Shown: positions 1 to 53,978 of the stretch, piece by piece
How positions within the stretch are numbered: position 1 is the first letter of the stretch
Layout of the letters: each line of letters opens with the position of its first letter
NCBI RefSeq assembly: GCF_021535135.1
Contig: NZ_CP091036.1
Span: 744,001 to 808,000, forward strand
Direction of reading: 5' to 3'
Source of the DNA: Antarcticibacterium sp. 1MA-6-2
GTDB taxonomy: Bacteria; Bacteroidota; Bacteroidia; Flavobacteriales; Flavobacteriaceae
Length of the DNA stretch: 64,000 nt
Notes under the pieces: model-generated
The model's database searches: none
What the model was told of the DNA's origin: nothing
What the model saw: only the letters and a program-made list of their open reading frames with translations
Program-made: the position numbers and the translations under genes

Positions 1-1434
1 GGAGATCTGTCTTACGTTCTTTTCCTGCCCCGTATTCTTTTTTTAAACGCTCAAAATAAGCAATTGCATAATCGGTAAGGTGATCCAGGTGATGCTTTAC
101 CTGGGCGATTTCCCCTTCCAGGGCATCAATCTTTTGCTGGGCCTTGTCAATGTCAAATTTAGAGATCCTTTTAATCCTTATTTCCGTAAGCCTAACGATA
201 TCTTCCTCTGTAATTGCACGTTTCAAATGCGAAATATGAGGTTTTAATCCCTCATCTATAGCTCTTATTACTCCTTCCCAGGTCTCTTCTTCTTCAATGT
301 CACGGTAGATCCTGTTCTCTATAAAAATTCGCTCCAGGGAAGCAAAATGCCACTGCTCTTCAAATTCGTCCAGCTTAATCTCCAAATCCTGTTTTAGCAG
401 ACTCAGAGTATGATCTGTTGATCTTCTTAATATTTCACTTACTCCCAGGAAAACAGGTTTGTTATCTATAATGACACAACCCAAAGGAGAAATGGCATTT
501 TCACAAGTTGTGAAAGCATATAATGCATCTATAGTTTTGTCCGGAGAAATGTTTGGCGGAAGGTAGATTAGAATCTCAACATTTTCTGCTGTGTTATCTT
601 CTATCTTCTTGATCTTGATCTTCCCCTTATCATTTGCTTTAAGTATAGATTCAATAAGAGTGGTAGTGGTTGTGCCGTAAGGAATTTCAGTTATGGCGAG
701 AGTGGTCTTGTCATATTGTGAAATTTTCGCCCGAATTCTTACGCGGCCACCACGCTTACCGTCGTTATAATCTGTGATATCAGCTTCTCCGGCAGTGGGA
801 AAATCGGGAAAAAGTTTAAAGCTCTTCCCCTTGAGGTGTTTTATAGAAGCGTCTATTAATTCAATAAAATTATGAGGCAGGATCCTGGTGCTTAAACCAA
901 CTGCTATCCCTTCTGCTCCCTGTGCAAGCAAAAGCGGAAATCTAACCGGAAGATTAACTAGCTCTTTTTTACGGCCGTCATAGGATAATTGCCATTCAGT
1001 TAATTTGGGATTAAAAAGAACCTCTAAAGCAAATTTGGATAAACGCGCCTCGATATAACGAGGTGCAGCTGCCCGGTCACCTGTGAGAATATTACCCCAG
1101 TTTCCCTGAGCATCTATCAAAAGATCTTTTTGACCAATCTGTACCATGGCATCTCCAATACTCGCATCTCCGTGAGGATGATACTGCATGGTATGGCCAA
1201 CTATATTAGCTACTTTATTATACCGCCCATCATCCAGGTCTTTCATGGAATGCATAATGCGGCGATGAACTAGTTTAAAACCATCCTCAACAGCTAGGTA
1301 CCGCTCGTTCTAAAATTACATAGGAAGCATAATCAAGGAACCAATCCTTATACATGCTTAGTAACACGTATAAGTTGCTCTTTTTGTTGATCATCCCCGC
1401 CTTCGGGTATAATTTCAGGATTATCGATGTCCAT
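1..1434 (-). CDS. parC: DNA topoisomerase IV subunit A (partial, left edge; frame-broken)
   Basis: Breakage-reunion subunit of type IIA topoisomerase, which with ParE decatenates daughter chromosomes. The visible part is roughly the first 475 residues; the C-terminus lies beyond base 1. After repair the protein shows MYKDWFLDYASYVILERAV near residue 29 and the catalytic-tyrosine segment APRYIEARL. Two +1 shifts break it: CTTAG at 1357-1361 (frame wants ACCAGC) and CTAGG at 1294-1298 (frame wants ACCAGC on the gene strand). At 1270-1273 the near-universal DGFKPV motif reads DGFKLV because CCAG reads CTAG. The ATG at 1434 overlaps the stop of the upstream small gene as TAATG, so the two are probably translationally coupled. 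GyrA is the alternative, but the ParE-type partner next door favours ParC. Confidence 0.93.
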
Positions 1435-1922
1435 TAAGTAAGTGCTTTATTTTTTTCCAATACTTTTCTCAGGGATTCTATCATGCCTCTTTTTTTCTTC
1501 TTTCCCAGGAAAGTAATATTGAACCTGTAAGTTCGCGGGCCCTTTTTTCGACGACTGCGAATAAATATTTTCAAGCTGCTCCAGATGCCATAATCGCTGA
1601 CTTCAAAATTAATCAATTTTGACTTCGGAAATTCGGCTCTTTTCACCCTGTACTCCATAAATTTTGAAAAGAAAACGCCATTGTTCTTAAAATTGAGGGT
1701 TTCTCCATCGCTATCAAATTCAAACAACTGGCCTATTCTGTGAAAATAAATTCCGAACAGAAGCAATAGGATATTCGGAAGAAAATGACTGAAGGTCATG
1801 TTGTTCTCATCATCTGAAGCCATAATTTCTATATTCACAAAAATATTTGTGACAAAAGCAGCAACTATTAAGATGTAAACCGAAGGTACTATCTTCGTTT
1901 CAGTAGTATTTTTAAATCTCAT
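1434..1922 (-). CDS. Small membrane protein inside the parE-parC operon
   Basis: A 162-residue protein of unknown function. Two hydrophobic segments (about residues 13-31 and 46-62) suggest a membrane hairpin, followed by a basic soluble C-terminal part rich in Arg and Lys (RSRRKKGPRTYR near residue 122). The start is three bases after the parE stop, and its stop overlaps the parC start as TAATG, so it is almost certainly cotranscribed and coupled. The layout resembles bacterial PH-domain-like membrane proteins, but I recognise no specific family. Codon use matches its neighbours. Confidence 0.8.
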   Translation of the reverse strand: MRFKNTTETKIVPSVYILIVAAFVTNIFVNIEIMASDDENNMTFSHFLPNILLLLFGIYFHRIGQLFEFDSDGETLNFKNNGVFFSKFMEYRVKRAEFPKSKLINFEVSDYGIWSSLKIFIRSRRKKGPRTYRFNITFLGKKKKRGMIESLRKVLEKNKALT

Positions 1923-1925
1923 AGG

Positions 1926-3780
1926 CTACTCTGCGATAAGATCAAGTTCAACTTTTAGATTGTCTATAATAAACTCCTGCCTGTCCGGAGTGTTTTTTCC
2001 CATATAAAAACTTAATAATTCTTCTATAGACATATCCTTATCCAGCATTACGGGATCAAGACGAATATCCTCACCAATAAAATGTTTAAACTCATCTGGT
2101 GAAATTTCACCCAACCCCTTAAATCTCGTAATTTCCACTTTCCCATTTAATTTATTAACCGCCAATTGACGTTCCATCTCACTGTAGCAATAAATCGTTT
2201 CTTTTTTATTTCTAACCCTAAACAGTGGAGTTTGCAGGATATATAAATGGTTTTCTTTAATGATCTCCGGGAAAAATTGTAAAAAGAAGGTTATAAGAAG
2301 TAAACGTATATGCATTCCATCCACATCGGCATCTGTAGCAATAACAATGTTGTTATACCTTAGGTCTTCTATAGATTCTTCAATATTAAGCGCCGCCTGA
2401 AGAAGATTAAATTCTTCATTTTCATAAACGATCTTTTTAGTAAGCCCATAAGAATTCAAAGGTTTTCCTTTTAGACTGAAAACCGCCTGAGTATTAACAT
2501 CTCTGGACTTCGTAATTGAACCACTTGCTGAATCTCCCTCGGTAATAAAAAGCGTAGTTTCCAGGTACCTTTCTTTTTTACTGTCGCCAAGGTGAATACG
2601 GCAGTCCCTTAGTTTTTTATTGTGGACACTAGCTTTTTTAGCACGATCTTTTGCCAGCTTTCGAATCCCTGAAAGTTCTTTTCTTTCCCGTTCTGCCTGA
2701 AGGATCTTACGCTGTAGTTTATCTGCAGTCTCAGGATTTTTATGGAGATAATTATCCAATTGAGTTTTTACAAAGTCATTAATATAGGTTCTCACAGTAG
2801 GAAGCTTCCCTCCCATATCTGTAGATCCCAGCTTTGTCTTTGTCTGACTTTCAAAAACCTAGCTCCATTACTTTAATACTAATTGCTGCAACCACAGATT
2901 TTCTTACATCTGAGGCTTCGTAGTTTTTTCCGTAGTATTCTCTAATGGTTTTTACAAGAGCTTCTCTAAAAGCAACTAAATGTGTCCCTCCCTGTGAAGT
3001 ATTTTGCCCGTTAACAAAGGAGTGGTATTCTTCAGAATATTGAGATTTGCTGTGAGTAAGAGCCACTTCAATATCGTCTCCCCTTAAGTGGATAATCTTA
3101 TATAACTGATCATCTTCTTTGATGCTGTCACCAAGAAGATCTTTTAGACCATTTTCAGAATAATACTTTTCTCCATTAAAGATTATCGTTAACCCGGGAT
3201 TGAGGTAAACGTAATTCTTAAGCATCTTTTCAATGTACTCGTCACGATACTTAAAGTTTTTAAAGATGGAATCATCCGGAATAAAAGTAACCTTTGTGCC
3301 ACGACGTCTTGAAGTCTCTTCAAGCTCCTCCTCGTTTACCAAATTTCCTTTTTCAAATTCGGCAGTACGGGACCTCCCATCACGTGTGGATTCAACCTTA
3401 AAGCTGGAGGACAGAGCGTTCACTGCTTTTGTTCCAACTCCGTTTAATCCAACAGATTTTTTAAAGGCTCGGGAATCATACTTACCTCCGGTATTCATTT
3501 TGGAAACAACATCCACCACTTTTCCCAGCGGTATCCCTCTACCATAGTCCCTCACAATTACCCGCTGATTTTGAACTGAGATCTCAATAGTTTTTCCAGA
3601 GCCCATTACAAACTCGTCGATACTGTTGTCTATGACCTCTTTTAGTAAGATGTAGATCCCGTCATCGGCAGTAGAACCGTCCCCAAGTTTTCCTATATAC
3701 ATACCGGGACGCATACGAATATGCTCTTTCCAGTCCAGCGACCGGATATTATCCTCTGTATATTTTGTGTCTTGACTCAT
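1926..3780 (-). CDS. parE: DNA topoisomerase IV subunit B (one frameshift)
   Basis: ATPase subunit of topoisomerase IV. The N-terminal GHKL ATPase domain shows [13 protein letters not shown] and [10 protein letters not shown]; the transducer domain follows; the TOPRIM part shows TEGDSASG and [10 protein letters not shown], and the C-terminus ends ELDLIAE. Repaired length is 617 residues, normal for ParE and too short for GyrB. One +1 shift splits it at 2858-2862, where the gene strand reads GAGCTAGG and the frame wants GAGCTGG (Glu-Leu-Val); on the plus strand this is ACCAGC read as ACCTAGC. The promoter is unclear: a TATATTAG sequence on the minus strand (3803-3810) is one base away from the Bacteroidota -7 box. 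Confidence 0.95.
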
Positions 3781-3908: not shown

Positions 3909-3953
3909 ATGACTCCCGTTAAAATTTATTTTAAGTAACAATAACTCTAAATA

Positions 3954-9775: not shown

Positions 9776-12325
9776 ATGAAGATAGAAGCAAAACAAGCCC
9801 CTGTAAAAACTTATTCCCAGGAGGAAGCTTTTGAAGCCTCCAGGAACTATTTTCAAGGCGATGAATTAGCCGCAAGAGTATGGATCAATAAATATGCTCT
9901 TAAAGATTCTGATGGAAATTTATACGAAAGTAACCCTCAGGAAATGCACATTCGCATTGCTAAGGAAATTTCGCGTATTGAGCAAAAATATCCTAACCCC
10001 ATGAGTGAGGAAGAAGTTCTGGGATTACTCGAGAATTTCAAATATATAGTACCTCAGGGGAGCCCAATGGCAGGGATTGGTAATAAATACCAGATCGCTT
10101 CTCTATCTAATTGTTTTGTAATTGGGAACAACGGTGATAACGATTCTTACGGGAGTATCATGAAAATTGACCAGGAGCAGGTCCAATTAATGAAGAGACG
10201 TGGTGGTGTTGGTCACGACCTTTCTCACATTCGCCCAAAAGGTTCTCCTGTTAAAAACTCTGCCCTCACCTCTACTGGTCTTGTTCCTTTTATGGAAAGA
10301 TTTTCTAACTCAACCCGGGAAGTTGCACAAGACGGTCGTCGCGGAGCTTTAATGCTTTCAGTTTCTATAAACCATCCTGATGCTGAAGATTTTATAGATG
10401 CAAAAATGCAACAGGGAAAAGTAACAGGTGCCAATGTATCTGTAAGGATAGATGATGCTTTTATGAAATCGGTTAAGCACAATACGCCTTACGTTCAAAA
10501 GTTCCCCATCCACAGTGACTCTCCTAAATATACCAAAGAAGTAGAAGCCCAAAAGATTTGGAATAAAATCGTCCACAACGCGTGGAAATCGGCAGAACCG
10601 GGAATCCTTTTTTGGGATACCATTACAAGAGAATCTGTACCGGATTCTTATGCAGATTTAGGATATAAAACAGTTTCTACAAATCCATGTGGTGAAATTC
10701 CGCTTTGCCCCTACGATTCCTGTAGATTACTTGCTATTAACCTGCTTTCTTATGTAGATAAACCATTTACAGAAGAAGCTTCCTTTGATTTTAAGCTTTT
10801 CAAAAAGCATGTAGGTGCTGCACAAAGAATAATGGATGACATTATTGATCTTGAATTAGAAAAAATTGATGACATTCTTGGTAAAATAGATGCAGATCCT
10901 GAAAACGAAGAAATAAAGAGAGTTGAAAAAAACCTGTGGCTGGAAATTCGTAAAAAAGCTTACGAAGGAAGAAGAACAGGAATAGGTATTACTGCAGAAG
11001 GTGATATGCTTGCCGCTCTTGGAATCTCCTACGGAAGCGAAAAAGGAATAGATTTTTCTGTTGAAGTTCACAAGACACTGGCTATTGAGGCTTACAGAGC
11101 TTCAGTATATTGTGCTAAAGAAAGAGGTGCTTTTAGTGTATACGATTCAGAAAGAGAGAAAAACAATCCATTCATTCAGCGTTTAAAAGAGGCAGATGAA
11201 AAGTTGTATTTCGAAATGATGGAGTACGGCCGAAGGAATATTGCTTTGCTTACCATTGCACCTACCAGTACTACCAGTCTTATGACCCAGACATCATCAG
11301 GAATTGAACCTGTTTTCCTGCCTGTCTATAAGAGAAGAAGAAAAGTAAATCCTAATGATAAAGAAGCAAGAGTCGACTTTGTAGACGAAACAGGGGATTC
11401 CTGGGAGGAATATGTTGTGTTTCACCACAGGTTTAAAGAATGGATGCAAATAAAAGGTTACGATACTACAAAAAACTATACGCAAAAGGAGCTTGATAAG
11501 CTGGTGAAAAAATCTCCATATTACAAAGCGACTTCCAACGATATTGACTGGGTTAGCAAGGTGACTATGCAGGGAGCTGTACAAAAGTGGGTTGACCACT
11601 CAATAAGTGTAACTGTAAACCTTCCAAACGAAGCTACCGAGGAACTTGTAGGCGAGCTCTATCTTAAGGCCTGGGAAGTAGGCTGTAAAGGAGTAACTGT
11701 TTATCGTGACGGTTCCCGTTCCGGAGTACTTATTTCCAACGAAGAAAAGAAAGAGGAAGCAAAGACTTCTTCAATTTTTCCTACCAAACGTCCGCAGACT
11801 TTAGAAGCAGATGTTGTCAGGTTCCAAAACAACAAAGAGAAATGGATTGCTTTTATAGGAATTATTGATGACAAACCCTATGAAATATTCACGGGACTTT
11901 CTGATGACGAAGACGGAATATTAATTCCGCGTTGGGTGAACAAAGGATTGATCATTAAGAATAAAGATGATGAAGGAAATAGCCGCTATGACTTCTGTTA
12001 CGAGAATCAGCGTGGGTATAAAACTACCATTGAAGGGCTCTCCCACAAATTTGATCCTGAATTCTGGAACTACGCTAAACTTATTTCCAGTACTCTAAGA
12101 CATGGTATGCCAATTGAAAAAGCTGTAGACCTTATTAACAGCTTACAATTGGATAATGAGTCTATCAACACCTGGAAAAATGGAGTTGCCCGTGCCCTAA
12201 AGAGATATGTTGCAGATGGCACCGCAGCAAAAGGCCAAAAATGTTCTAATTGTAATTCCACAAACTTAATCTACCAGGAAGGCTGTCTTACCTGCCCTGA
12301 TTGTGGATCCTCTAAATGCGGATAA
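9776..12325 (+). CDS. nrdJ: Adenosylcobalamin-dependent ribonucleotide reductase (class II)
   Basis: Reduces ribonucleotides to deoxyribonucleotides using a B12-derived thiyl radical, without oxygen. The protein has 849 residues. The N-terminal part shows GSPMAGIGNKYQIASLSNCF (about residues 98-117, with an active-site cysteine). The barrel shows NPCGEIPLCPYDSCRLLAIN, and IAPTSTTSLMTQTSSGIEP is the C-terminal loop. The tail is a zinc-ribbon with the pattern CSNC...CLTCPDCGSSKC. It is monocistronic, with a strong terminator after it. No small NrdB-type radical subunit is nearby, as expected for class II. The gene is intact. Confidence 0.95.
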   Translation: MKIEAKQAPVKTYSQEEAFEASRNYFQGDELAARVWINKYALKDSDGNLYESNPQEMHIRIAKEISRIEQKYPNPMSEEEVLGLLENFKYIVPQGSPMAGIGNKYQIASLSNCFVIGNNGDNDSYGSIMKIDQEQVQLMKRRGGVGHDLSHIRPKGSPVKNSALTSTGLVPFMERFSNSTREVAQDGRRGALMLSVSINHPDAEDFIDAKMQQGKVTGANVSVRIDDAFMKSVKHNTPYVQKFPIHSDSPKYTKEVEAQKIWNKIVHNAWKSAEPGILFWDTITRESVPDSYADLGYKTVSTNPCGEIPLCPYDSCRLLAINLLSYVDKPFTEEASFDFKLFKKHVGAAQRIMDDIIDLELEKIDDILGKIDADPENEEIKRVEKNLWLEIRKKAYEGRRTGIGITAEGDMLAALGISYGSEKGIDFSVEVHKTLAIEAYRASVYCAKERGAFSVYDSEREKNNPFIQRLKEADEKLYFEMMEYGRRNIALLTIAPTSTTSLMTQTSSGIEPVFLPVYKRRRKVNPNDKEARVDFVDETGDSWEEYVVFHHRFKEWMQIKGYDTTKNYTQKELDKLVKKSPYYKATSNDIDWVSKVTMQGAVQKWVDHSISVTVNLPNEATEELVGELYLKAWEVGCKGVTVYRDGSRSGVLISNEEKKEEAKTSSIFPTKRPQTLEADVVRFQNNKEKWIAFIGIIDDKPYEIFTGLSDDEDGILIPRWVNKGLIIKNKDDEGNSRYDFCYENQRGYKTTIEGLSHKFDPEFWNYAKLISSTLRHGMPIEKAVDLINSLQLDNESINTWKNGVARALKRYVADGTAAKGQKCSNCNSTNLIYQEGCLTCPDCGSSKCG

Positions 12326-14887: not shown

Positions 14888-16172
14888 ATGAAAACTAAAA
14901 TTATAAAATTAATTGTTTCCTCAATTCTCTGGATTTTACCGGGAGTTTTGATCTGTTCTTTTCCGGCTTTACAGGCTCAGGAAATTATTCAGGACCAATT
15001 TAATGAATTTAAAGGGGAAGTGCGAGACAGCAGAAATGGAGATCCTATAGTTTCCGCATTTCTGGCTGTAAACGGAACTAATATCTCCACGGTAACCAAT
15101 GCCGATGGAGAATTCTTGCTGAAAATTCCTGTTTCCTTAACAACGGGAACTGTTACTATTTCCAATATGGGATATCAAAGTAAAACCCTGCCGTTAGATA
15201 ATTTTAGAAAAAACAATACTTCTATTGAACTCGACGAAACTATAGAGGAGCTCTCAACAGTAAATATTTTTAAAGCAGAAAATGCGCATGAGTTAGTTAG
15301 AGATATGCTTTTAAAAACAGGAGATAATTATTTTAGCGATCCTACTCTTATGACTGCTTTTTACAGGGAAACAATAAGTAACAGATGGAGAAATGTCTCT
15401 CTTTCAGAAGCAGTTTTAAAAATTCACAAGAAGCCTTATACGTCCATTGGAAGAGATGATATCTCTTTGGTAAAAGCAAGAAAAAGTGCTGATTATAAGC
15501 GACTGGATACCGTTGCTCTTAAACTGCGAGGGGGGCCTTTTAATAACCTCTATAGTGATGTTATGAAATATCCTGAATACCTTTTTAAACCTCAGGAACT
15601 GGATGATTATACCTTTAGTTTCTCTGAACCTACAAGGATCAACAATCGCTATCTCTACGTTGTGGATTTTGAGCAAAAAGACAAAAGTTATCCCTGGTTT
15701 TTCGGTAAACTTTTTATAGATGCAGAAACCACTTCTCTTGTAAAAGCAGTTTATGAAATAAATGTTGATAATCGTAAGATCGCCAGTGACATGTTTGTGA
15801 GGAAAAAACCAGCTAAGTGCCAGGGTATATCCAGTTAGTGTCCAATACGAAGTTGATTACCGGGAAAGCGGTGGCAAATGGTATTATGGCTATGCAAATG
15901 CAAATCTCGAATTTGTTATAAACTGGAAACGAAAATTGTTTAACACCAAATATTTCGTTAGCAGTGAAATGGCGATTACCGACTGGGAAAAACGAGCAGA
16001 TGAAATTGCCAGAAGAGATGCAAATTTCCTAAGTCAAACAGTTGTTATGGCTGATGATGTCTCAGGATTTTCAGATGTTGGGTTTTGGGGAGAAAATAAT
16101 ATTATAGAACCCGATAAGTCCATTGAAAATGCTATTGAAAAGATTCAAAGACAGATAAAGAACAATAATTGA
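14888..16172 (+). CDS. Carboxypeptidase-like regulatory domain protein (one frameshift)
   Basis: Exported protein, about 427 residues after repair. A signal peptide covers residues 1-30, followed by a CarboxypepD_reg-like beta-sandwich (FKGEVRDSRNGDPIVSAFLA; TNADGEFLLKIP; NMGYQSKTLPLDNF) like those preceding Bacteroidota outer-membrane proteins. The rest is a conserved-looking domain with YTSIGRDDISLVKARKSADY and GKLFIDAETTSLVKAVYEI. A +1 shift lies at 15813-15817, where CAGCTAAGTGCC should read CAGCCAGTGCC. The protein probably sits in the periplasm or at the outer membrane; the ligand is unknown. Confidence 0.8.
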
Positions 16173-16229: not shown

Positions 16230-17766
16230 TTAACCTTTACTATTTTCTATCTGATCTTTTTTCTTTTCTGAAAAATAGCGGCCGTACAATTTATTTTGAG
16301 ACTTCAATTTTTTCACACGGTCTACTGGCAGTTGTCCCGGCTTTAACCTCCAGCTCCAGTTACCTTTTGTACTACCCGGGATATTCATTAAACCCTTCTT
16401 TCCCAATCCCAAAATATCCTGCATAGGTACCACAGCAATTTTGGCTACCGATTGTAAAGCTAATTTATGCATAACCTCATGTGCATTGGCTTTAGTAATA
16501 TCATGCCCGGTATACTTTCTTAAATGTTTTTTAGCCGCTTTGTCAGCACCTTTAAACCATCCTTTTGTAGTATTGTTATCGTGAGTGCCTGTATAAACTA
16601 TACTGTGCGGTTTGTGATTGAAAGGCAAATAGGGATTTTCTCGTTTTTCTTCACCGAAGGCGAATTGCAAAACATTCATTCCGGGAAAATTAAATTTTTC
16701 CAATAGCTTATAAACTAAGCTCATCCAGCTGTCCAAGATCTTCAGCAATTAAAGGCATATCCGGAAATTCTTTTTTTACTATTCTGAAAAAATCTGTTCC
16801 GGGTGTTCTTACCCATTTTCCGTTTATTGCGGTGTCCTCACCTGCAGGCACTTCCCAATAAGCTGCAAATGCGCGGAAATGGTCTAAACGAACCAGATCG
16901 AAAAGCAATAAATTCTGCCTGACCCTCTCTACCCACCATTTAAATTTATCTTCTTTCAGCTGCTTCCAGTCGTATACTAGGTGTTCCCCATAACTGTCCT
17001 GTTTCACTGAAATAATCCGGAGGCACACCTGATACTTTTTCAGGTTGTTTCTCTTCATCAAGCTTGAAGAATTCAGAATATGACCAGCAGTCGGCACTGT
17101 CGTGATTTATATAAAAAGGTATATCTCCAAATAATTTAATTTTCTTCTTACTGAAGCATAATTTTTTAATTTCTCCCACTGCGTGAAGAACATAAACTGG
17201 ATAAACTTAGTTTTCTTAATATTCTCACTCAATTCCTCCTTAGCTTCTTTAATGGCACAAGCTTCTTTATCTCTTAATCCCTCCGGCCACTTCGTCCAGG
17301 CGCATTTATGTTTCTCGTGTAAAGCTTTGTAGAGACTATAATCATCCAGCCAAAACTTGTGGTTCTTTAAAAATGAATTATAATCGGTAGATTTGGTATT
17401 CCTGAAATTTTGAAAAGCTTCCTCCAGAACTTTCTCTCTGAATTTTTCCGCAGCCTTAAAATTTACTTTTTCCGGAGTTTTATCCTTGGAAAATTTAAGT
17501 TTCTTCAAATTTACCAGCCCCTCCTCCTCGAGCAATTGCGGACTTATAAGTAATTTATTCCCTGCAAAAGCTGAATCACTGCTGTAGGGAGAATAACTAT
17601 AAGCTTTATCGGTGGGATTTAATGGCAGCAATTGCCAGTAAGTATGGCCTGAGGCTTCCAAAAAATCCACGAATTCATAAGCATCAGGACCAAGATCGCC
17701 GATGCCGTACGGTGAAGGCAAAGAAGTTATATGTAATAGTACGCCACTGCTTCTTTCTAATTCCAT
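16230..17766 (-). CDS. malQ: 4-alpha-glucanotransferase (three frameshifts)
   Basis: GH77 amylomaltase that disproportionates malto-oligosaccharides. Repaired length is about 510 residues. It begins ERSSGVLLHITSLPSPYGIG, continues with DLGPDAYEFVDFL, shows GDIPFYINHDSADCW and DHFRAFAAYWEVPAGEDTAI (the nucleophile region), AEDLG (acid/base) and THDNNTTKGWF. Breaks: 16715-16719 (+1, CTTAG on the gene strand), 16977-16981 (+1, CCTAG where CCAG fits), and 17151-17156 (+2, near GCTTCAGT). The start overlaps the treY stop as TAATG. In this operon it probably recycles the short oligosaccharides left by TreY/TreZ. Confidence 0.93.
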
Positions 17767-20419
17767 TATTTACTTTTATTTCTAAATAGTGCTACAGGAA
17801 ACTGTTCTATGTGCTCCTTCACCTGTAAAAAATCGCCCGATTCTGATTTTGTTTCCGTAAAAATATTTGTCCAATTGGTGGGAAAATCTTCGGGTAATAT
17901 AACCTGAAGATCCTTAATATTTGTCAAATTAAGATCAACGGGGTTAAAGATGTTTGATACTTCCACAGGTGCAACAATTATTGCATATTCTCCATCTAAT
18001 CTACGTGCATAGGCTATAAAACTTTCTGCAGAATTACAGTAATTTTCAGAGGGATGTAATCCCCTTTTTGATACAGATCGAAATTTCTTTTCCTATCAGA
18101 TAATGTTCTGTTTAAGGTGTACATCTTAACTTTACCACTACCATAATCCTTTTTAATAGTATTTAACTGTTCCTTTAGATGGTTATGATTAAATTTCTCA
18201 AATTCAGATAAATATTTTTTCCTTAAATCGTAATTAACTTTCCTTCTGTTGTCGGGATCTACATAACTAAGGTCCCACAATTCTGTTCCCTGATATACAT
18301 CGGGGATACCGGGGGAGGTAATTTTAATGAGAGTTTGAGATAGGGATTTTACTGCTCCCAGCCCGGCAATTTTCTTCTGAAATTCATCAAAAGATTTTCT
18401 GAAGTTCTCATTAGCTAAAATATCCCTGATAAAATCAAAAACATCCTGTTCATATTGTTCATTAGGTTGTGCCCAATTGGAATGAACCTTAGCCTCTCGT
18501 AAAACTTTTTGTAAGTAGTCGCTTGAGCGGGATAGAAAATCTTCCTCCTTCTCGAAGGTCATTCCTCCCAGAAGTACCTGGTAAATAAAATATTCTTCAT
18601 TGGCTGAGGGAACTTCTTTATTTTTCCTCACCTCCAGATTTAATATCTTCCATTCCTGAACCTTTGAAAACCATTCCTCAGGAATTTCGCTGAGCACATC
18701 TAACCTCATCCTGGCATCTTCTCCTCTTTTAGTGTCATGAGTTGCTGTGGCACTAATAGCTAAAGGATAATTTTCCAGACGCTGCAGCATCTTTTGATGA
18801 AATTCTTCTACCGTAATTCCGAAATTTTCGGGAGAATCACCAACCTCATTATGGGAGGCAAGCCTGTTATATATATAGAAGGAAGTATCTTCTACCCCTT
18901 TTGCAGCCAGAGGACCGCTGAACTGCTGGCACCTCTGCAGGAAAAACAACATGTTCTCTTTATTTTTTCCTGCTTCACCCAGGAACAATTTTTTTACCTC
19001 CTGAATTTGCTGTTCAAATTCGGGCGCTTTTTCTGTAGCTTTTTCTATTGCCTCGTCAATTACACCCTTTTGCAAAGGTGTAAGCGGAAAATTATGCGGA
19101 TATATCCTGTAAACAGGAAATGCTGCCAAAACAGCACTTAATGCTTCTTTCCAGCTATCTTCCTTTTGATCTTCAGGTAGTAGATTAATTTCCTTTAAAA
19201 GAGTCATCAAATTCTCTAATTCTCCACCCATTCTTTCTTTCAGAATGAATAATTTCTTATCATAGACCAGCGAGTGATAATCTGCAATATCCGGTGCTAT
19301 TTCAGCATAGGATTCAGAAAAATATTTTTCACTGGATGATTTCGTAAAAAGATGGTTTATCTGGGCAAGGAATTCATATCCGCTTGTTCCCTCTACAGGC
19401 CAGTCTTCAGGCAATTCCTCTCCGGCTTCTAAGATCTTTTCTACTACAATGTAAAAATCTTCGCCCACCAACTTCCTTAGAGATTTAAGATAATTGAGAG
19501 GATCAAATAACCCGTCTATATGATCTATTCGTAAACCCTGAATTAAGCCTGCGTCACAAAGATCTTTAATATAGGTATGGTAAGAATCAAATACCTGCGG
19601 ATCCTCCATTCTAAGGCAAATAAGATCATTTATTGTGAAGAACCTCCTGTAGTTGATCTCCTTCTCTGTCCTTTTCCAGTAAGTAGGAAGGAAGTATTGA
19701 AGATCAAGTACCTCTTTCATTCGGCTTTCAGACTCATTAATTGCCTTAACATTGTCATTTACAAGTTGAATTTGATCATCTTTTTCATATACCTTTCTTA
19801 GAAAAGAAGTTTTTAGATCCTTCCATTCCTCTGCATTCCCGGAAAAATTCTGAAAATGATCCTTCCATTTGCCGTTTAATACATTGGATAGAATGTAGGC
19901 ATAAGACTCTCTGCTCAAAGGATAAATATTGTCATAGTAAGCAAGTGAGAATCCCTCTTCACCAAGCTGGATATTTAATTCTTTGTTACTGAGAATTTCT
20001 TCTAATTCTCCTCCAAGGAAAGGAGCCATAACCTTATTTAAACCTTTGTAATCCCAATTAATATCGAAAAAATTGTACCTTGACGATAATGGCCCCAACT
20101 CAAAGATCTCATTAAGCCAAACGTTCTCTCCATCATAAGCCATGTGGTTAGGAACAATGTCCTGTAACCATGTCATTTGCAATTCTTTCAACCTTTCACT
20201 AATCTCCCTGAACTCTTCCAGTTTCCCAATTTCCCTATTGAGAGAAAAAGGATCCATCACGTCATAACCATGGGTACTTCCCTCCCTGGCCCGAAAAAAT
20301 GGAGCTGAATACAGAGTAGAGACCCCCAACCTATCCAGATAATCAACTATCTTTTTAAGATCTTCAAATTTGAAGTCTGGCGAAAGCTGTAAACGATATG
20401 TTGTATCAGGCTTTCTCAT
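17766..20419 (-). CDS. treY: Maltooligosyl trehalose synthase (one frameshift)
   Basis: GH13 enzyme that turns the reducing-end alpha-1,4 bond of maltodextrin into the alpha,alpha-1,1 bond of trehalose. Repaired length is about 884 residues. Markers: TLYSAPFFRAREGSTHGYDV (about residues 36-55), GLRIDHIDGLFDPLNYLKSL (nucleophile), ATATHDTKRGEDARMRLDVL, and PGIPDVYQGTELWDLSYVDP near the C-terminus. A one-base deletion near 18036-18040 (ACAGT where ACCAGT is needed) cuts off the last 80 residues, which continue in another frame to 17766. It starts in a TAATG overlap with the GH57 gene stop and ends in a TAATG overlap with malQ. Confidence 0.95.
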
Positions 20420-22929: not shown

Positions 22930-24744
22930 TTATTTATTTAAAAGCACGAAAGAATGTGCAGGTATTTGAAAATTATTGGAAATACTTTGAAATTTGATCT
23001 CCTGGGTTCCACCCCATTCTTTGTTTCCCGATGCCAGTAAAAGTTGCCAGGATCCTTCAGCAACATTTACCTCCTGATCACTGTCAGAAAAATTAAAAGC
23101 GGCAAAAAGACTTTTTTCTCCTTCAGCAGTAAGAGTTAACAACCGCTTCTCCTCATTTGAATCAGATATTATTTCATTACTTCTGAAGGGTTCAAAAGCA
23201 CCGCTTTTTCGCAGCTCCAATAGCTTTTTATAAAAGCTGAAAAATGAATTTCTTCTTTTCATCCTTCTGAAATTCCCAGTTTAATTTGGATGCTTCAAAA
23301 GTTTCTTCTCCCTGCGGATCAGGGAAATCTCCTGTATTATTGTCAAAAAAGTATTCAAATTCCCGTTTTCTTCCTTCCCTCACTGCTTTTACCAGGTCTT
23401 TATCTCCATGACTTACAAAATATTGAAAGGGTCTATCTTCTGCGAATTCCTCACCCATAAATAACATAGGAACAAAGGGTGAAGTGAGTAAAACTCCCGC
23501 TGCGAGTTTTAATCCTTCAAAAGAAATTAACTCCTGCAGCCGTTCTCCCAGCATCCTGTTACCTATCTGGTCGTGATTTTGAATACATACCACGAATTTT
23601 GATGGTGGTAATCCCAAAGGATTATTTCCCACAGTTCTCTTTCTAAAATTGGAATAAATTCCATCATATATAAAAGCCTGTTTAAATGCTTTTTCCAGAT
23701 GTGAAATTTTTCCGAAGTCTTTATAATATCCATCAGTTTCGCCTGTAAGAACAGTATGTAGAGCGTGATGGAAGTCATCTACCCATTGACCTTCAAGACC
23801 GTAACCGCCCTTTTCATAGTCGTTAATTATTTTAGTGTCATTAAGATCACTTTCTGCAATGAGCACATATTGCCTCTAACCGTCTTTTCCTGAAGTCCAT
23901 CCACCTTCTGGCTCATTTCCTTAAGCAAATGCCGCGCACCTCTGTCTATAATTTCATGGATGGCATCCAGGCGTAACCCGTCAAATCTAAATTCTTCAAG
24001 CCACATAAGGACATTCTGAATAAAAAAATTCCTTACTTCGTCACTGTGTTTATCATCATAATTTAAAGCTGCTCCCCAGGGGGTTTTATACTTTTCAGTA
24101 AAATAGGGACCATATTGAGAAAGATAATTCCCTTCCGGCCCCATATGGTTATATACAGCGTCCAGTATAACAGCAATACCCTTTTGATGGCAGGTATTGA
24201 TCATTTTTTTTAATCCTTCCACACCACCATAACTATGTTGTGCAGCATATGGATACACCCCGTCGTAACCCCAGTTCCTGTTCTCGGGAAATTGGGAAAT
24301 AGGTAGTATTTCTATTGTATTAATGCCTAATTCAAGTAAATGGTCTAATTTTTCTGTGACCGCTTTAAAGGTTCCTTCTGAAGTAAAAGTTCCTACGTGA
24401 AGCTCATAGATCACCATATCCTTAATAGAAATGCCTTTCCAGGATTTTTCTTCCCACTTAAAAGCATTTTGATCCACTACCTGAGACCAGGAGTGCACAC
24501 CCTCTGGTTGAGAACGTGAAGCAGGATCTGGAAATTCATTTTTGTTGTTGAGTTTAAACTTATATAAAGTGCCGGGTGGAGTATTTGAGATCGTTCCTTC
24601 CCAATAGCCGTGTTTATCCTTTTGAAGTTTTTCGCTTTTTTCTTTACCTTTTATTATTACCTCAACATTTTCTTGTGAGGGTGCCCAAACAGTAAATTTT
24701 GTATTGTCTTCATTTAAAAATTCTGCTCCTATCTTTCTATACAT
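22930..24744 (-). CDS. treZ: Malto-oligosyltrehalose trehalohydrolase (two frameshifts)
   Basis: GH13 enzyme that releases trehalose from maltooligosyl-trehalose made by TreY. Repaired length is about 604 residues. An N-terminal CBM48/E-set (FTVWAPSQENVEVIIKGKEK) is followed by the catalytic barrel: VYELHVGTFTSEGTFKAVTE-type strand 1 text (here IYELHVGTFTSEGTF), EILPISQFPENRNWGYDGV, AVYNHMGPEGNYL, FDGLRLDAIHEIIDRGARHL and CIQNHDQIGNRMLGERL. Two breaks occur: near 23873-23882 (just before the LIAESDLNDTK acid segment) and at the T-run at 23238-23244. It is first gene of the minus-strand arm, with an 86-base gap to the GH57 gene. Confidence 0.94.
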
Positions 24745-35111: not shown

Positions 35112-35469
<358 letters not shown>

Positions 35470-37900: not shown

Positions 37901-38866
37901 ATGAGAGTATTAGCAAATGACGGTATTTCGCAGAGCGGAAAAATTGCTCTTGAAAAAGCCAGTGTTTGAAGTTATTATTACCAAGGTTGCACAGGAGCAA
38001 CTTAAAAATTATCTGAATGAAGAAAAAATAGATGTTATTCTCGTAAGAAGTGGCACCCAGGTGCGGAAAGATCTAATAGACTCCTGTAAGAATCTTAAAA
38101 TAATAGGACGCGGTGGCGTAGGCCTGGATAATATTGATGTTGATTATGCTCTTAGCAAAGGAATAAAGGTAATTAATACTCCCGCAGCCAGTTCATCCTC
38201 TGTTGCAGAATTGGTATTTGCGCATCTCTATGGAGGAGTAAGATATTTATATGACGCTAACAGGAATATGCCTTTAAGTGGAGATTTAGAATTTAAGAAC
38301 TTAAAGAAGAATTATGCAGGAGGAAGGGAATTACGGGGCAAAACTTTGGGAATTATTGGCATGGGACGCATCGGGAAGGAAGTTGCCCGTCTTGCTCTTG
38401 GTATTGGCATGAAAGTTATAGCCAGTGATGATGAAGTTGGACACACTGATATTACGTTACATTTTTATAATGACCAGGTGGTGACAATCCCTATTAAAAC
38501 TGAACCTGTTCAGGAACTTATTAAACACTCTGATTTTATTACACTCCATGTGCTTAAGCACAGCAGGAACCTATTATTGGTAAAGAAGAAATCCAGGAAA
38601 TGAAGAAAGGCGTAGCTATTATCAATACCTCCCGGGGAGGAGTAGTAGATGAAGCGGCGCTTCTGGAAGGTTTGGCTTCAGGCAAAATTTCATTTGCAGG
38701 CCTGGATGTTTTTGAGAATGAACCTACACCTGCGGTAAAAGTTCTAATGGACCAGAAAATCTCGCTCTCCCCACATATTGGAGCTGCAACTCTTGAAGCC
38801 CAGGATAGAATTGGTATAGAACTGGCAGAACAAATCATATCTATTTTAAATGGAAAAAATGTTTAA
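37901..38866 (+). CDS. serA: D-3-phosphoglycerate dehydrogenase, short form (two frameshifts)
   Basis: Catalyses the first step of serine synthesis. Repaired length is about 320 residues, without an ACT domain. It starts MRVLANDGISQSGKIALEKA; IGRGGVGLDNIDVDYAL and the NAD-binding GKTLGIIGMGRIGKEVARLA follow. The catalytic region reads GVAIINTSRGGVVDEAALLE and LSPHIGAATLEAQDRIGIEL (His of the catalytic pair). Breaks: near 37959-37964 (+1; here CCAGTG is present where one base fewer fits) and 38553-38558 (CTTAAG for CCAG, +2). The pair with serC is standard. Confidence 0.95.
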
Positions 38867-40790: not shown

Positions 40791-43077
40791 ATGTACAAAT
40801 ATTTATGTATGGTATTTGCCATGCTCATCGCAAGCTCGGCACTGTCACAAAATTTAATTGAGGGAAAAATTACTGATGCAGAAACGGGACAACCTGTTTT
40901 TGGTGCTTCAGTTTCAGTACCCAAACAAGAAAAAGGAAGCCTTTCTTCTCCGGACGGTAATTTTAGAATAATAAACCTTGCGAACGGAAATCACCAACTG
41001 GTAATATCCTCATTAGGGTATGCAACTAGAACTCTTACTGTCACTGTTCCTTTACAAAATCCCATTAGTATTACTCTGGAACCTTCAGCAATAGAAATGG
41101 AGGAAGTTATAGTATCTACTCCTTTTCATAGATTACAGAGTGAAAATGTGGTTATGGTCACTCGCGCTACTGTAGATGATTTAAATAGATCTGGCGCTGT
41201 AACTTTAGCAAATGGAATCTCGCAGCTTCCCGGCGTAGAGACAGTAACTACGGGGGCGGGAATAGGAAAACCAGTAATAAGGGGATTAAGTTCTAACAGA
41301 GTTTTAGTCTATGCACAGGGAGTAAGGCTGGAAAATCAGCAATATGGAGATGAGCATGGTCTGGGTTTAAGTTCCAGTGGAGTAGAAAGTGTAGAAGTAA
41401 TTAAAGGACTTAGCTTCATTGTTATACGGGAGTGATGCCCTTGGCGGAGTTCTCTACCTAAATCCTGAAAAATACAGCGCAGTTAACAGTACAGCAGTTG
41501 ATGCTTAATGTTGCCTATCACAGCAATACCCTGGGAACAGAATATAATGCAGGAGTAAAATCATCAGGAGATAGGTTTAAGTATCTCATTAGGGGTAATT
41601 ATGCCGCCCACAGTGACTACGAAACCGGAAATGACCTTAGGGTTACTAATTCCCGGTTTAATGAATTTGATCTAAAGGGAGGAATTGGTTACCAGGATTC
41701 AAAATACCGTGGAGATCTTAGGTATAATTACAATAATTCAGGAGTTGGAATACCAGAGGAAATAGGAGAACAATCTACGTCCAGGGAATTATTAGAGCCC
41801 TATCAGGAAGTTGAAAATCACATTTTAAGCTTTGACAACAGGCTCTTTTTTAGAAATTCAAGCCTTGATATTAAAGTGGGTTACCTCTTTAATAATCGAA
41901 GAGAATTTGAAGACCACCATCATCACGAGGAAGAGGAACACGAGGAGGAGCACGAGGAAGAGGAGCACGAAGAAGTTATACCTGAAGGAGAGGAGCATCC
42001 GGCTCTTGAGATGCACCTGGAGACTTTAAATTATGATATCAAGTATAATACTCCACAATGGGGGAATTTTGAAACCATTATTGGAGTACAGGGAATGTTC
42101 CAGACAAACTCCAATTTTGGAGAAGAAATTTTAATTCCAGACGCACAGGTTAGAGATATAGGTTTTCTTGCCACCACCCATTACCATCTGGATAAATTTG
42201 ATTTTCAGGCTAAGTCTAAGGTTTGATAACCGAAGACTGGAGACCAAAGAACATGGAGAGGAAGGAGAAGAAGAATTTTTTGCACCTATTGAAAGAAATT
42301 TTACAAGTTATAATGGCGCTCTGGGTGTAAAATTTCAGGTTTTACCTGCCCTGACTGCTCGAATTAACGGCGCGTCAGGATTCCGTGCCCCAAACCTGGC
42401 CGAACTTACCGCCAATGGAAGCCACGAAGGTACTAACAGGTATGAAATAGGAAATTCTTCTCTGGACAATGAACAAAATTTCCAGCTGGACCTCGCATTG
42501 GAATATAGAAACGAGCATTTTGAATTATTTGCAAATGCTTTCCACAACAAAATAAATAATTATATCTACCTGAACCCAACCGGAGAATTTATTGAAGAAG
42601 ATCCTGTTTTTGAATATTTCCAGAATGATGCAAGGTTATATGGTGGAGAAGCTAGGTATTCATATTCACCCCCACCCTATTCACTGGCTGCATATAGAGA
42701 GTAGCATAGAAACAGTGGAAGGGGAACAAGGTGATGGAGAAAATCTGCCCCTAATCCCCGCAACTTCCTTTACAAATACTCTGAGAATAGAACTTGAAAA
42801 GGCCAGTTTTCTAAAGGAGACTTACACATTCGTCACCCTAAAGACTACGCTGGACCAGGATAAAACCGGAGTTTTTGAAACTATTACTCCAGGATATTCG
42901 CTTCTAAGTGCAGGGTTGGGTGGAAATTTTAATCTTGGAGGATTAGATTTAGGATTGCGTATAGCAGGTTCAAATCTATTGGATAAAACATATATTTCTC
43001 ATTTATCCAGATTAAAACCTGATGGGATTCCCAATATGGGTAGAAATGTGACAGTGAGTTTAAAAGCTTCTCTCTAG
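40791..43077 (+). CDS. TonB-dependent receptor with His/Glu-rich loop, probable metal uptake (four frameshifts)
   Basis: Outer-membrane active transporter, about 760 residues after repair. Order: signal peptide, CarboxypepD_reg-like domain (GKITDAETGQPVFGASVSVP), plug domain (VTLANGISQLPGVETVTTGA; GKPVIRGLSSNRVLVYAQG), then the barrel, ending GIPNMGRNVTVSLKASL. Between about 41918 and 41995 an extracellular loop carries FEDHHHHEEEEHEEEHEEEE, the pattern of zinc receptors such as ZnuD. Breaks: 41409-41413 (CTTAG for CCAG), 41504-41508 (CTTAA), 42210-42214 (CTAAG for CCAG) and 42652-42656 (CTAGG for CTGG), each +1. Zinc is the best guess; nickel or copper is possible. Confidence 0.9.
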
Positions 43078-43601: not shown

Positions 43602-44159
43602 CTATGCCTCTGCCTGTTTAAGTTTTTCAGAATATAGTTCCTTTAATTTTTTGATTTTAGGATCAATAATTGCCTGGCAATACTGCTGCTCCCTATGTTT
43701 ATTATAATATTCTAAATGTTCAGGTTCTGCAGGATAAAATCCTCCGGCCTCTGATACTTCTGTAACTATGGCATTCTTAAATATCTTTTCATTTTCCAAT
43801 TCTCTTTTTACCTCAAGTGCTATAGTTTTTTGCTCTTCAGAATGGTAGAAAATTGCACTTCTATAGTGAGTCCCAACGTCATATTGCTGCCTGTTTAATG
43901 TTGTAGGATCGTGGGTGCTGAAAAATATATAAAGTAACTCAGCATAGGTAATTTCTGAAGGATCAAATTGAATTTCTATAGACTCAGCATGGCTTAGTCC
44001 TGCCGTGGTAACAACTTCCCGATATGCAGGATTTTTTATCGTTCCTCCGGTAAATCCCGGAATTACTTTATACACACCTTTCAATCTTTGAAAAACCGCT
44101 TCTGTACACCAGAAACATCCTCCGGCCAGAGTTGCCTTTTCTAAATCTCTTTCTTCCAT
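43602..44159 (-). CDS. msrA: Peptide-methionine (S)-S-oxide reductase
   Basis: Repairs oxidised methionine (S form) in proteins. The 185-residue protein has the catalytic GGCFWCTEAVF near residue 12, GFTGGTIKNPAYREV, HAESIEIQFDP and the QYDVGTHYRSAIFYHSEEQK block. The start ATG at 44159 gives the usual N-terminus; an upstream in-frame start at 44186 would add an unlikely hydrophobic nonamer. The C-terminal resolving cysteine is in HREQQYCQAII. The gene is intact. Confidence 0.96.
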   Translation of the reverse strand: MEERDLEKATLAGGCFWCTEAVFQRLKGVYKVIPGFTGGTIKNPAYREVVTTAGLSHAESIEIQFDPSEITYAELLYIFFSTHDPTTLNRQQYDVGTHYRSAIFYHSEEQKTIALEVKRELENEKIFKNAIVTEVSEAGGFYPAEPEHLEYYNKHREQQYCQAIIDPKIKKLKELYSEKLKQAEA

Positions 44160-45965: not shown

Positions 45966-47182
45966 ATGAAAACACACCAGCATCCTGTCAATGAGAAACA
46001 ACGTCTATCAGCCCTTGAGGAACTTCAGTTATTTCCGGTAATTCAGGAAGACAACTTTGATAATATAACCCAGCTGGCCTCTTTTATTTGTAAAACCCCT
46101 GTATCTCTAATTACTCTCATAGGTAAAGACAAACAATATTTTAAGTCTAAAGTAGGAACAGAACTAACAGAGGCAGATCGCGATATTTCTCATTGTACCC
46201 ACGCTATCCTTAATCCGGAAGAATTATTAGAGATTCCTGATACCAGGGAAGACAGTCGGTTTTCAAATAATCCTTACACCGTTGGAAATCCACCAATCCT
46301 GTTCTACGCTGGTATGCCGCTTAAAGCTTCAAACGGAAGTGCAATAGGTACATTGTGCGTCCTCGATACTCAACCACGACAGCTTCAAAATGATGAGAAA
46401 ATTGCTCTCAAGGCTCTTGCACGCCAGGTAGAAAACCTGTTTGAATTAAGGCGCCAAAATCTTGATCTTAATAAAACAAAAAATGAACTAAAGCAAAGGA
46501 ACCATCAACTAAAAGATTTTGCTTAGGTGTAGTGGCCCACGATATGAAAATGCCCCTCGCAAATATTATATTAACTGCAGATCTTTTAAAAGCTAAATAC
46601 AAAACCCATTTTGATGAACAGGGTATGGAGTATCTCAATTATTTAAAGCAATCTTCCTTTAAATTAAGCAATTACGTGCAGGGAATCCTTGAGCATTATG
46701 AGAGCGATGTGGTAAGTGATATAAATCACGAAGAATTTGATGTTCACGATCTTCTGGAACAAATAATTGATTTGTTAAATATTAATTATGATTGTGAAAT
46801 AAACCTACCTGAAATAAATAAGGTGTTGCATTGTAATCGTGCAGCCCTGGAGCAAATATTCCTGAATTTAATAGGGAATAGCTTAAAATATAATGAACAC
46901 GAGAAAATTGTAATTACGGTAAATTGCGAAGAAGACGAAAAATTCTATTATTTCTCTGTAAAAGATAACGGGATTGGAATTCCAAGAGATAAGCAGGAGG
47001 AGATTTTTAATCTTTTTACGGTAGTCGCCGAAAAAGACAGGAAGGGGAACAGAGGTAATGGCATTGGGCTTTCTACTGTTAAAAAGCTGGTTGATTCTTT
47101 AGGCGGTGAAATTAGTGTGGAATCAAAGGTGAATGAAGGCACTTTAATTAGATTTTCAGTGAAAAGAACGGCCTTGTGTTAA
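45966..47182 (+). CDS. GAF-domain histidine kinase 1 (one frameshift)
   Basis: Soluble sensor kinase of about 404 residues, without membrane segments. Residues 1-165 form a GAF domain (TPVSLITLIGKDKQYFKSKV; DISHCTHAILNPEELLEIPD; FYAGMPLKASNGSAIGTLCV). A short coiled coil follows, then HisKA (VVAHDMKMPLANIILTADLL, phospho-acceptor His) and a HATPase (IFLNLIGNSLKYNEHEKIV; DNGIGIPRDKQEEIFNLF; GIGLSTVKKLVDSLGG). The +2 shift at 46522-46527 (GCTTAGG for GCTGG) falls one codon before the HisKA box. No response regulator is adjacent. Confidence 0.9.
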
Positions 47183-51691: not shown

Positions 51692-51733
51692 TAGCTAATT
51701 TTTCAGATCTTTTAAAGATTAAAATTTTTCATC

Positions 51734-52060: not shown

Positions 52061-52719
52061 TGACTGTAAAAGAACTATCACTTTATCATCTTATTAGAGA
52101 ACCAAAACTTAAAACCGCAAAGTCTCCGGTTCTAATAATGTTGCACGGCTACGGTAGTGACGCTAATGATTTATTTGGATTTAAAGACGAACTACCAGAC
52201 GAACTCTTTATAATTTCGGCTCAAGCCCCCTACCCTCTTCCTCCTTATGGAAATGCTTGGTATGCTTTAAATTTTACAAATGAGGGTGGAAAATTTAGTG
52301 ATGACATTCAGGCTGTAGAATCCAGGAAAAAGATCATAAAATTCATAGATGAAGTAATCGAGAATTATCCTGTAGACAGTGAAAATGTAACTCTACTAGG
52401 ATTTAGCCAGGGTACTATTTTAAGTTATGCAGTTGCTCTAAGCAATCCTAATAAAGTTAAAAATGTGATAGCTCTTAGCGGTTATATCCATGAAAATATA
52501 CTGGAAGAAGGATACGAGACAAATGATTTTTCGAACTTAAGTGTTTATGCTTCACACGGGACTCAGGACCAGGTAATCCCGGTTTCGTGGGCTAGAAACA
52601 GTCCACAAATCTTAAAGAAGCTGGGAATTGACCATACTTATTCTGAATTTCCTGTGGGACATGGTGTAGCCCCACAAAATCTAATGGAGGTTAAGCAGTG
52701 GATTAAAAATAAGATCTAA
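52060..52719 (+). CDS. Alpha/beta hydrolase, phospholipase/carboxylesterase type
   Basis: A 219-residue esterase of the Abhydrolase_2 family: LIMLHGYGSDANDLFGFKDE (oxyanion region, about residues 27-46), nucleophile Ser in LLGFSQGTILSYAVALS (about 113), acid in HGTQDQVIPVSWAR and base His in EFPVGHGVAPQN. It is cytoplasmic, with no signal peptide. Substrate unknown. Its last four bases overlap the convergent gene's stop. Confidence 0.92.
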   Translation: MTVKELSLYHLIREPKLKTAKSPVLIMLHGYGSDANDLFGFKDELPDELFIISAQAPYPLPPYGNAWYALNFTNEGGKFSDDIQAVESRKKIIKFIDEVIENYPVDSENVTLLGFSQGTILSYAVALSNPNKVKNVIALSGYIHENILEEGYETNDFSNLSVYASHGTQDQVIPVSWARNSPQILKKLGIDHTYSEFPVGHGVAPQNLMEVKQWIKNKI

Positions 52720-53216
52720 TTAGAAGAAGGATAAAGGAAAGATTTTTCGGTGTTTAGAACCAGGTTGCTGTTTTCATCTATATCATAAGTAATAAACAGC
52801 TCCCCCCAATAAGTACCATCTGTAAAATCTGCTATGATCCATTTGTGGTTTAGAATCTTGATTTTATTAATTCTCATTTTCCCTTCCATCCCTGCAAAAG
52901 GAACCAGCTCATTATCTCTATCTGCCTGATTCCTGCTGATAATTTCATTTTCTACCAGTTGAGCGAGTTCTATAGCGTCTATTCCCCTCTCCTCAAAATA
53001 AGAGATAGCTTCTTCATTGTTGGACAGGGAGAAGTATTGAAGATTAAGATTTTCACCTTTTAAAGTTTTATTTGATTCTTCAGCTTCAATTAGTCTCTCC
53101 TCCAGGTTTTCTAATTTCCGGCTTTGGGCATCTAAGATCTTTTTATCATTTACGTATATAAAAATGGTAAACATTAATGTGAATATAAACAGGTAAAGAA
53201 AAATCTTGCTTCGCAT
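52716..53216 (-). CDS. Membrane-anchored hypothetical protein
   Basis: A 166-residue protein with one N-terminal membrane helix (IFLYLFIFTLMFTIFIYVND), a coiled coil (LENLEERLIEAEESNKTLKG) and a soluble C-terminal domain (NHKWIIADFTDGTYWGELFI). No family is recognised with certainty. Its ATG overlaps the stop of the MBL-fold gene as TAATG, so both are made from one transcript. Confidence 0.75.
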   Translation of the reverse strand: MRSKIFLYLFIFTLMFTIFIYVNDKKILDAQSRKLENLEERLIEAEESNKTLKGENLNLQYFSLSNNEEAISYFEERGIDAIELAQLVENEIISRNQADRDNELVPFAGMEGKMRINKIKILNHKWIIADFTDGTYWGELFITYDIDENSNLVLNTEKSFLYPSSN

Positions 53217-53978
53217 TAAATTTTTATTTTTAGATTATCGTAGGCTAGAAAAACATTTTCAGGAAGGCTTTCCTGCACTTCGCTGTGAAAACCCATTACA
53301 TGACTTATATGAGTGAGATAAGCTCTTTCAGGTTTAATTTTGATAATAAATTTTAGGGCATCCTCCAGGTTAAAATGAGAATGATGAGGCTCCTTGCGAA
53401 GAGCATTTACAACCAGAACTTTTACTCCCTGCAACTTGTCGATTTCTTCCTGTTCAATCGTCTTAACATCGGTTAAATAAGCGAAATCTTTAAAGCGGAA
53501 ACCGAAGACCTGTACCCTGTTATGCATTGCATCAATGGGGACGATGTGATTTCCGGCAAAGGAGAAAGGTTTGTTTGAAATTTCCCTTATGGCTACACTG
53601 GGTGCACCGGGATATTTATTTTCAGTTTGAAATATATATTCAAATCTTGTTTTAAGGGAATTCAGAACTCTATTGTGTGCAAAAACCGGAATATCTCCCT
53701 GCCTGAAAAAAAATGGTCTTATATCATCCAGGCTTACTGTATGGTCATTATGCTCGTGGGTGTACAAAATAGCATCGATTCGGGAAATATTGTTGTTCAA
53801 CATCTGAAGCCGAAAATCAGGTCCGCAATCCACCAGGATATTTTGGCCGTCCCACTCTACTAATATAGAAACCCTTAGGCGTTTATCTTTTGAATCTTTG
53901 CTTAAACACACCGGATGATCACTACCAATAACAGGGATTCCCTGCGAAGTACTTAGTGCCTAAAAATGTTACCTCCAA
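53216..53978 (-). CDS. MBL-fold metallo-hydrolase, PhnP-like (one frameshift)
   Basis: Phosphodiesterase-like metallo-beta-lactamase-fold protein of about 253 residues after repair. The metal motif is ILYTHEHNDHTVSLDDIRPF (HxHxDH), with VNALRKEPHHSHFNLEDAL and AYLTHISHVMGFH as later metal ligands. The N-terminus VTFLGTSTSQGIPVIGSDHP is recovered only by reading CTTAG at 53952-53956 (gene strand CTAAG) as CCAG. A TTG at 53978 is the simplest start; an ATG at 54007 would add 10 residues. The best-fitting families are PhnP and related cyclic phosphodiesterases. Confidence 0.88.

Follow-up and report, generated by a model that had tools for sequence, protein, structure and literature searches.

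Several 5-methylcytosine (m5C) methyltransferases with the target RCCGGY (R, purine; Y, pyrimidine) have been described in bacteria. NmeDI of Neisseria meningitidis is reported as an m5C restriction-modification (R-M) system with a Vsr protein (PMC7973814). VchM of Vibrio cholerae is described as an orphan m5C methyltransferase for the same word, without a restriction enzyme, and DmtD and M.AvaIX as m5C methyltransferases for RCCGGY in cyanobacteria (PMC4654547, PMC4390886, PMC8112702). Here, a stretch of 64,000 nucleotides from Antarcticibacterium sp. 1MA-6-2 (the window; positions 744001-808000 of the chromosome, contig NZ_CP091036.1) was analyzed, in which conserved genes lose their reading frame at a few recurrent short words, together with an R-M locus coded elsewhere on the same chromosome.

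Basecallers for nanopore data that were not trained on a methylated motif make errors in the consensus; in one benchmark, about 70% of the consensus errors were found in Dcm motifs (PMC6591954). For Listeria, nanopore errors centred on GCTGG/CCAGC were reported (PMC10687267), and lineage-specific motif errors were described in Klebsiella and other species (PMC11610573). The frame breaks in the window are very probably an assembly artefact of this kind, namely nanopore-type consensus errors at RCCGGY sites carrying m5C through an NmeDI-like system.

Depletion of RCCGGY

The chromosome holding the window is a single contig of 4,383,004 bases in an assembly that is 97.25% complete. The organism is a marine, environmental member of the Flavobacteriaceae that is not known as a pathogen, and one gene of the window had its closest named relatives in Gillisia and Salinimicrobium. 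RCCGGY was not found at all in the window, whereas 18 (maximal-order model) to 27 (order-2 model) occurrences were expected. RCCAGY was found 99 times, with 83-94 expected. In a sample of 464 kb taken around the chromosome, RCCGGY was observed 9 times compared to 122-212 expected, and eleven loci of related genomes (223 kb) contained it 206 times.

Among all 2080 hexamers, GCCGGC, ACCGGC and ACCGGT were the three most depleted, in this order, when ranked by the logarithm of the ratio of observed to expected counts (log2(O/E)). By the same measure, a comparable loss of these hexamers was not seen in three congeners. When ranked by z-score, the RCCGGY hexamers were not on top, and among degenerate palindromes RCCGGY fell outside the top ten, a list filled by broad degenerate words. 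CCGG with R..Y flanks (9 vs 311) showed the largest deficit of 784 C..G cores with at least 8 observed plus expected occurrences.

The same picture was obtained for the whole genome. ACCGGT was counted 42 times and its reversed control word 904 times, with 304-1166 copies of ACCGGT in 12 congeners, whereas RCTAAGY, counted on both strands, occurs 1550 times (control: 932), compared to 309-1060 times in these congeners. The resulting ratio of ACCGGT to its control, 0.046 (42/904), is the lowest visible among 395 genomes of the order, tiny genomes with a control count of zero aside. At one locus (L089; 1079, 1519, 3280 and 3500), four repeat copies with the same flanks retain ACCGGC, and this particular context seems to have been read correctly every time.

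Frame breaks and error words

In a first-pass annotation of the window, 25 frame breaks and one plain substitution at 1270 had been reported. The strings were present as described. The 26 places carry CTAAG, CTTAG, CTAGG/CCTAG, CTTAAG, CTTAGG, CTAG (at 1270) or, in shortened form, ACAG (at 18036 and 31587), and the error strings are flanked by a purine and a pyrimidine.

Breaks were searched blind to this list with 726 stop-to-stop open frames from stretches of five congeners, resulting in a merged set of 37 breaks seen with at least one congener locus, 28 of which were seen with at least two. Of the 25 reported breaks, 22 were found again in this way; 24968 and 32955 were each supported by a single congener locus, and the other 20 by two or more. 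The breaks at 16977, 30349 and 30527 were not recovered with these frames; all three were placed in the residue test described below. Within 8 nucleotides of a break, an insertion-type error word was found for 18 of the 28 breaks with at least two loci, whereas random placement, repeated 2000 times, gave 0.46 on average and never more than 4. For the set with at least one locus, the number was 20 of 37.

The window contains 36 insertion-type words, 16 of which lie away from any found break; four of these (16976, 30348, 30526 and 43992) were placed on congener proteins. Three error sites lie outside the earlier list, namely the substitutions at 957-962 and 11264-11269 and the insertion-type word at 43992-43998, each with conserved congener residues that fit RCCGGY. 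Together with the 26 reported places, 29 error sites were counted, and the number of RCCGGY sites expected in the window ranges from 18 to about 56, the upper value being taken from the rates of the C..G core test scaled to 64 kb. The sites are given below, with the net change in frame and the evidence.

957..962, ACTAGC, substitution only; RCCGGY here in 4/5 congeners; Pro in 5/5 congeners, Leu here; outside the earlier list
1269..1274, ACTAGT, substitution only; topoisomerase subunit A gene; DNA alignment; Pro in 4/4 congeners
1293..1299, error word, +1 break; topoisomerase subunit A gene; blind search and residue test
1356..1362, error word, +1 break; topoisomerase subunit A gene; blind search and residue test
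2857..2863, error word, +1 break; topoisomerase subunit B gene; blind search, residue test and DNA alignment
11264..11269, ACCAGT, probably a substituted RCCGGY; Gly in 5/5 congeners, Ser here
15812..15818, error word, +1 break; blind search and residue test
16714..16720, error word, +1 break; GH77 gene; blind search, residue test and DNA alignment
16976..16982, error word, +1 break; GH77 gene; residue test, missed by blind search
18036..18040, shortened word, -1 break; blind search; Gly in 3/3 congeners
22169..22175, error word, +1 break; GH57/DUF3536 gene; blind search and residue test
23870..23885, -1 break in blind search; perhaps another shortened site, its identity uncertain as the residues of the congeners vary
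24967..24973, error word, +1 break; blind search (one congener locus) and residue test
25178..25184, error word, +1 break; blind search and residue test; congener residues poorly conserved
25475..25481, error word, +1 break; blind search, residue test and DNA alignment
25978..25985, error word, +2 break; blind search and residue test
28186..28193, error word, +2 break; alpha-amylase gene; blind search, residue test and DNA alignment
28680..28686, error word, +1 break; blind search and residue test
30348..30354, error word, +1 break; residue test, missed by blind search
30526..30532, error word, +1 break; residue test, missed by blind search; congener residues not conserved
31587..31591, shortened word, -1 break; blind search and residue test
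32954..32960, error word, +1 break; blind search (one congener locus) and residue test
35284..35290, error word, +1 break; blind search, residue test and DNA alignment
38552..38559, error word, +2 break; 2-hydroxyacid dehydrogenase gene; blind search and residue test
41408..41414, error word, +1 break; TonB-dependent receptor gene; blind search and residue test
42209..42215, error word, +1 break; blind search and residue test
42651..42657, error word, +1 break; blind search, residue test and DNA alignment
43992..43998, error word, no net frame break in blind search; DNA alignment; Thr-Gly in 5/5 congeners; outside the earlier list
46521..46528, error word, +2 break; sensor kinase gene; blind search, residue test and DNA alignment
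53951..53957, error word, +1 break; blind search and residue test

For the error spectrum, cores with R..Y flanks were compared with the congeners and with a mirror-flanked control, the locus L089 being omitted for its tandem copies. CTAAG, CTAGG, CTTAAG and CTTAGG were raised about 2.4- to 3.7-fold, and CTAG had a ratio of 1.12. The form of the error varied with the preceding bases. After TG, CTTAAG was found 24 times compared to 6 scaled from the relatives and CTTAGG 10 times compared to 0, whereas AA, AG, CA and TA favoured CTAAG.

Five further breaks, at 32004, 37947-37960, 47476-47515, 49218-49266 and 56812-56849, were seen with at least three congener loci; they carry no error word and lie beside A/T runs. 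They resemble ordinary long-read indels, and their surplus over chance is not clear. Between 16230 and 32981 the window contains a series of alpha-glucan genes (GH77, GH57/DUF3536, alpha-amylases, CBM48), several of which are broken at error words. In one of the congener assemblies (a contig of 4.35 Mb), a ribonucleotide reductase gene was found with equal score at 16310-18856 and 4335402-4337948, and this end duplication looks like an untrimmed circular overlap.

Identity of the original word

For the residue test, the two protein pieces at a break were joined only by an X and aligned to congener proteins, and the congener residues were read at the X. In this way 24 of the 25 break sites were placed. 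The remaining one, 18036, was missed by the word pattern; it was placed later and stands outside the tally, which includes the poorly conserved sites 30527 and 25179. In the phase in which RCCGGY codes for Gly and RCCAGY for Ser, the congeners had Gly in 26 of 30 rows and Ser in one. In the phase that separates Arg (RCCGGY) from Gln (RCCAGY), Arg was found in 4 of 6 rows, Lys in 2 and Gln in none. The phase in which the central C decides between Pro and Leu gave Pro in 45 of 49 rows and Leu in none. By plurality per site, the counts were 7/8 for Gly, 1/2 for Arg and 13/14 for Pro. In addition, DNA alignment revealed RCCGGY in at least one congener at ten error sites.

Judged by these Gly, Arg and Pro residues at the breaks, the damaged word is the palindrome RCCGGY with CG in its centre, and not RCCAGY. 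The first-pass annotation had taken CCAG, in the context RCCAGY, as the common denominator, and this part was not borne out. The error words do look like CCAG plus extra bases, the two shortened sites read ACAG, and the Listeria errors at GCTGG/CCAGC offer a precedent (PMC10687267). However, RCCAGY has about its normal frequency in the window, most congener rows at the RCCAGY sites of this genome retain the encoded residue (Ser 57/86, Gln 35/55), and Ser and Gln are almost missing from the congener rows at the breaks. A modified RCCAGY, or another word containing CCAG, is therefore extremely improbable. The intact RCCAGY copies noted earlier are mostly unaffected, since RCCAGY is not the target: only 1 of 23 sites in the Ser phase and 0 of 15 in the Gln phase look substituted. 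The exception is 11264, one of five copies that had been counted as intact. The symmetry of RCCGGY also accounts for errors on both strands, with G to A in the centre in addition to C to T.

Methyltransferase locus

An R-M locus was found at about 3943900-3947500 of the chromosome. It comprises a methyltransferase, a Vsr gene upstream of it (TIGR00632, 2.7e-46), a probable type II restriction enzyme and an integrase-family recombinase. The methyltransferase is the one PF00145 C5 methyltransferase found in the genome (PF00145, 5.9e-48; TIGR00675, 2.8e-46), and a search of the genome for PF01555 gave no match. A protein named NmeDIP by its source shares 66% identity with the methyltransferase over 389 residues. 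The C-terminal domain of the predicted restriction enzyme has its best structural matches in BspD6I enzymes, followed at a lower level by FokI, a pattern that would agree with an enzyme of type IIS.

In 20 other genomes searched, 12 congeners among them, the methyltransferase had no close relative (best E 2e-14). Its absence from these congeners and the integrase-family recombinase in the locus suggest that it was gained on a mobile element. Among the 13 searched genomes of the genus, this methyltransferase together with the strong loss of ACCGGT was found in this genome alone. A methyltransferase without a matched known motif, as expected earlier, is not needed, as the sole C5 methyltransferase found resembles a known RCCGGY system.

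Origin of the errors

In the proposed mechanism, RCCGGY very probably carries C5 methylation of cytosine in this organism, introduced by the NmeDI-like R-M system. The assembly would most likely be a nanopore consensus without effective short-read correction, and the basecaller would misread the modified RCCGGY nearly everywhere. The central CG would be turned into TA, often along with one or two additional bases; sometimes a base would be dropped instead, or the change would be a mere substitution. The type of error would depend in part on the preceding bases. Indel errors would then break reading frames and substitutions would alter residues. The near-loss of RCCGGY, the small set of replacement words, the fitting congener residues and the presence of the R-M locus are observed, whereas the platform, the chemistry of the modification as m5C and the assignment of the motif to this methyltransferase are inferred. 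The first-pass annotation had likewise proposed basecalling errors at a modified cytosine and a responsible methyltransferase; this general reading is well supported, with RCCGGY in place of the CCAG target.

A different modification of RCCGGY (N4-methyl, a hypermodified base or phosphorothioate), with a stronger change in signal, could explain why a finished consensus lost nearly every site and so often gained bases, and the modified atom is not readable from an assembly. This is unlikely given the missing PF01555 match, the single C5 methyltransferase and the NmeDI-like layout with Vsr; moreover, the share of Dcm motifs in the benchmark errors cited above came from m5C itself (PMC6591954). 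Real mutations, either by decay of methylated RCCGGY through deamination or faulty repair or by avoidance of the word through restriction, are very unlikely. C to T is the product of deamination, and in cyanobacteria that have an m5C methyltransferase for RCCGGY, the word is reported to be under-represented in most genomes, sometimes strongly (PMC4390886). Neither process produces insertions of one or two bases, and the genome has a Vsr repair gene.

The topoisomerase genes also argue against real mutations. The gene for the type IIA topoisomerase subunit A lies at 2-1309 of the window and beyond, on the minus strand (NF009397, DNA gyrase/topoisomerase IV subunit A, 9e-248; PF00521). It is broken at 1294 and 1357 and substituted at 957 and 1270, the latter being the change from DGFKPV to DGFKLV noted before, at which the four congeners retain Pro. 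The gene next to it, for subunit B, loses its frame at 2858. Type IIA topoisomerases are essential in bacteria as a rule, and breaks in both subunits, as in the window copies, would hardly be tolerable in living DNA. Downstream of the breaks placed in the residue test, coding resumes with residues that match the congeners.

Some observations do not fit RCCGGY methylation and nanopore errors well. Three genomes with methyltransferases 63-67% identical to the one found here have no comparable loss of ACCGGT (492/1088, 1028/1015 and 520/727), although they may have been sequenced by another method. The congener residues at 30527 match no candidate word well, the flank ratio of R..Y CCAG is also raised (1.53) and is not fully explained, and the breaks at 41505-41516 and 58057-58063 have neither an error word nor a homopolymer. 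With regard to the platform, this genome is not clearly poorer in long homopolymer runs than the congeners, and 11 of 28 breaks lie next to a homopolymer compared to a random mean of 6.9 and a maximum of 16, which is no clear excess. The homopolymer data thus carry no platform signal, and the nanopore attribution rests on the motif errors.

The annotation of this genome will bear many false pseudogenes and false residues, as 26 reported places in 64 kb indicate, and the breaks at the tested sites should not be taken as gene loss, recoding or frameshifting. The combination of a vanished palindrome, error words and the residues of relatives could be used to flag such artefacts in other long-read assemblies and to guess the motif and the enzyme. 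As the motif vanishes, is replaced by flank-dependent error words and can be restored from the conserved proteins of relatives, it is conceivable, although we regard this as tentative, that an uncorrected assembly can itself report a methylation motif, and that an NmeDI-like system of the Bacteroidota modifies RCCGGY, possibly disturbing the pore beyond plain m5C.

Comparison with known systems

The errors found here are similar to those described at Dcm sites (CCWGG), where consensus errors gather at a methylated m5C palindrome on which the caller was not trained (PMC6591954). In contrast to that case, the motif is RCCGGY and is known from the assembly alone. The reports on Listeria (PMC10687267) and on Klebsiella and other species (PMC11610573) also ascribe lineage-specific motif errors to strain-specific modification. 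The errors described there are of two kinds, namely mismatches (at GCTGG or GCAGC) and ambiguous base calls (at RACG/CGTY), whereas many frame-breaking indels were found at RCCGGY in this study.

The locus shares with NmeDI the combination of methyltransferase, Vsr and, probably, restriction enzyme, and RCCGGY with m5C is the probable target here (PMC7973814, PMC4081073). It differs in belonging to another phylum, and the likeness is one of layout and description, with a target that is predicted. VchM and DmtD/M.AvaIX have m5C at RCCGGY in common with the predicted system, by description, and VchM differs from it as an orphan. Errors of nanopore consensus at modified motifs and m5C at RCCGGY are both already known, and the present case is a new instance of them.

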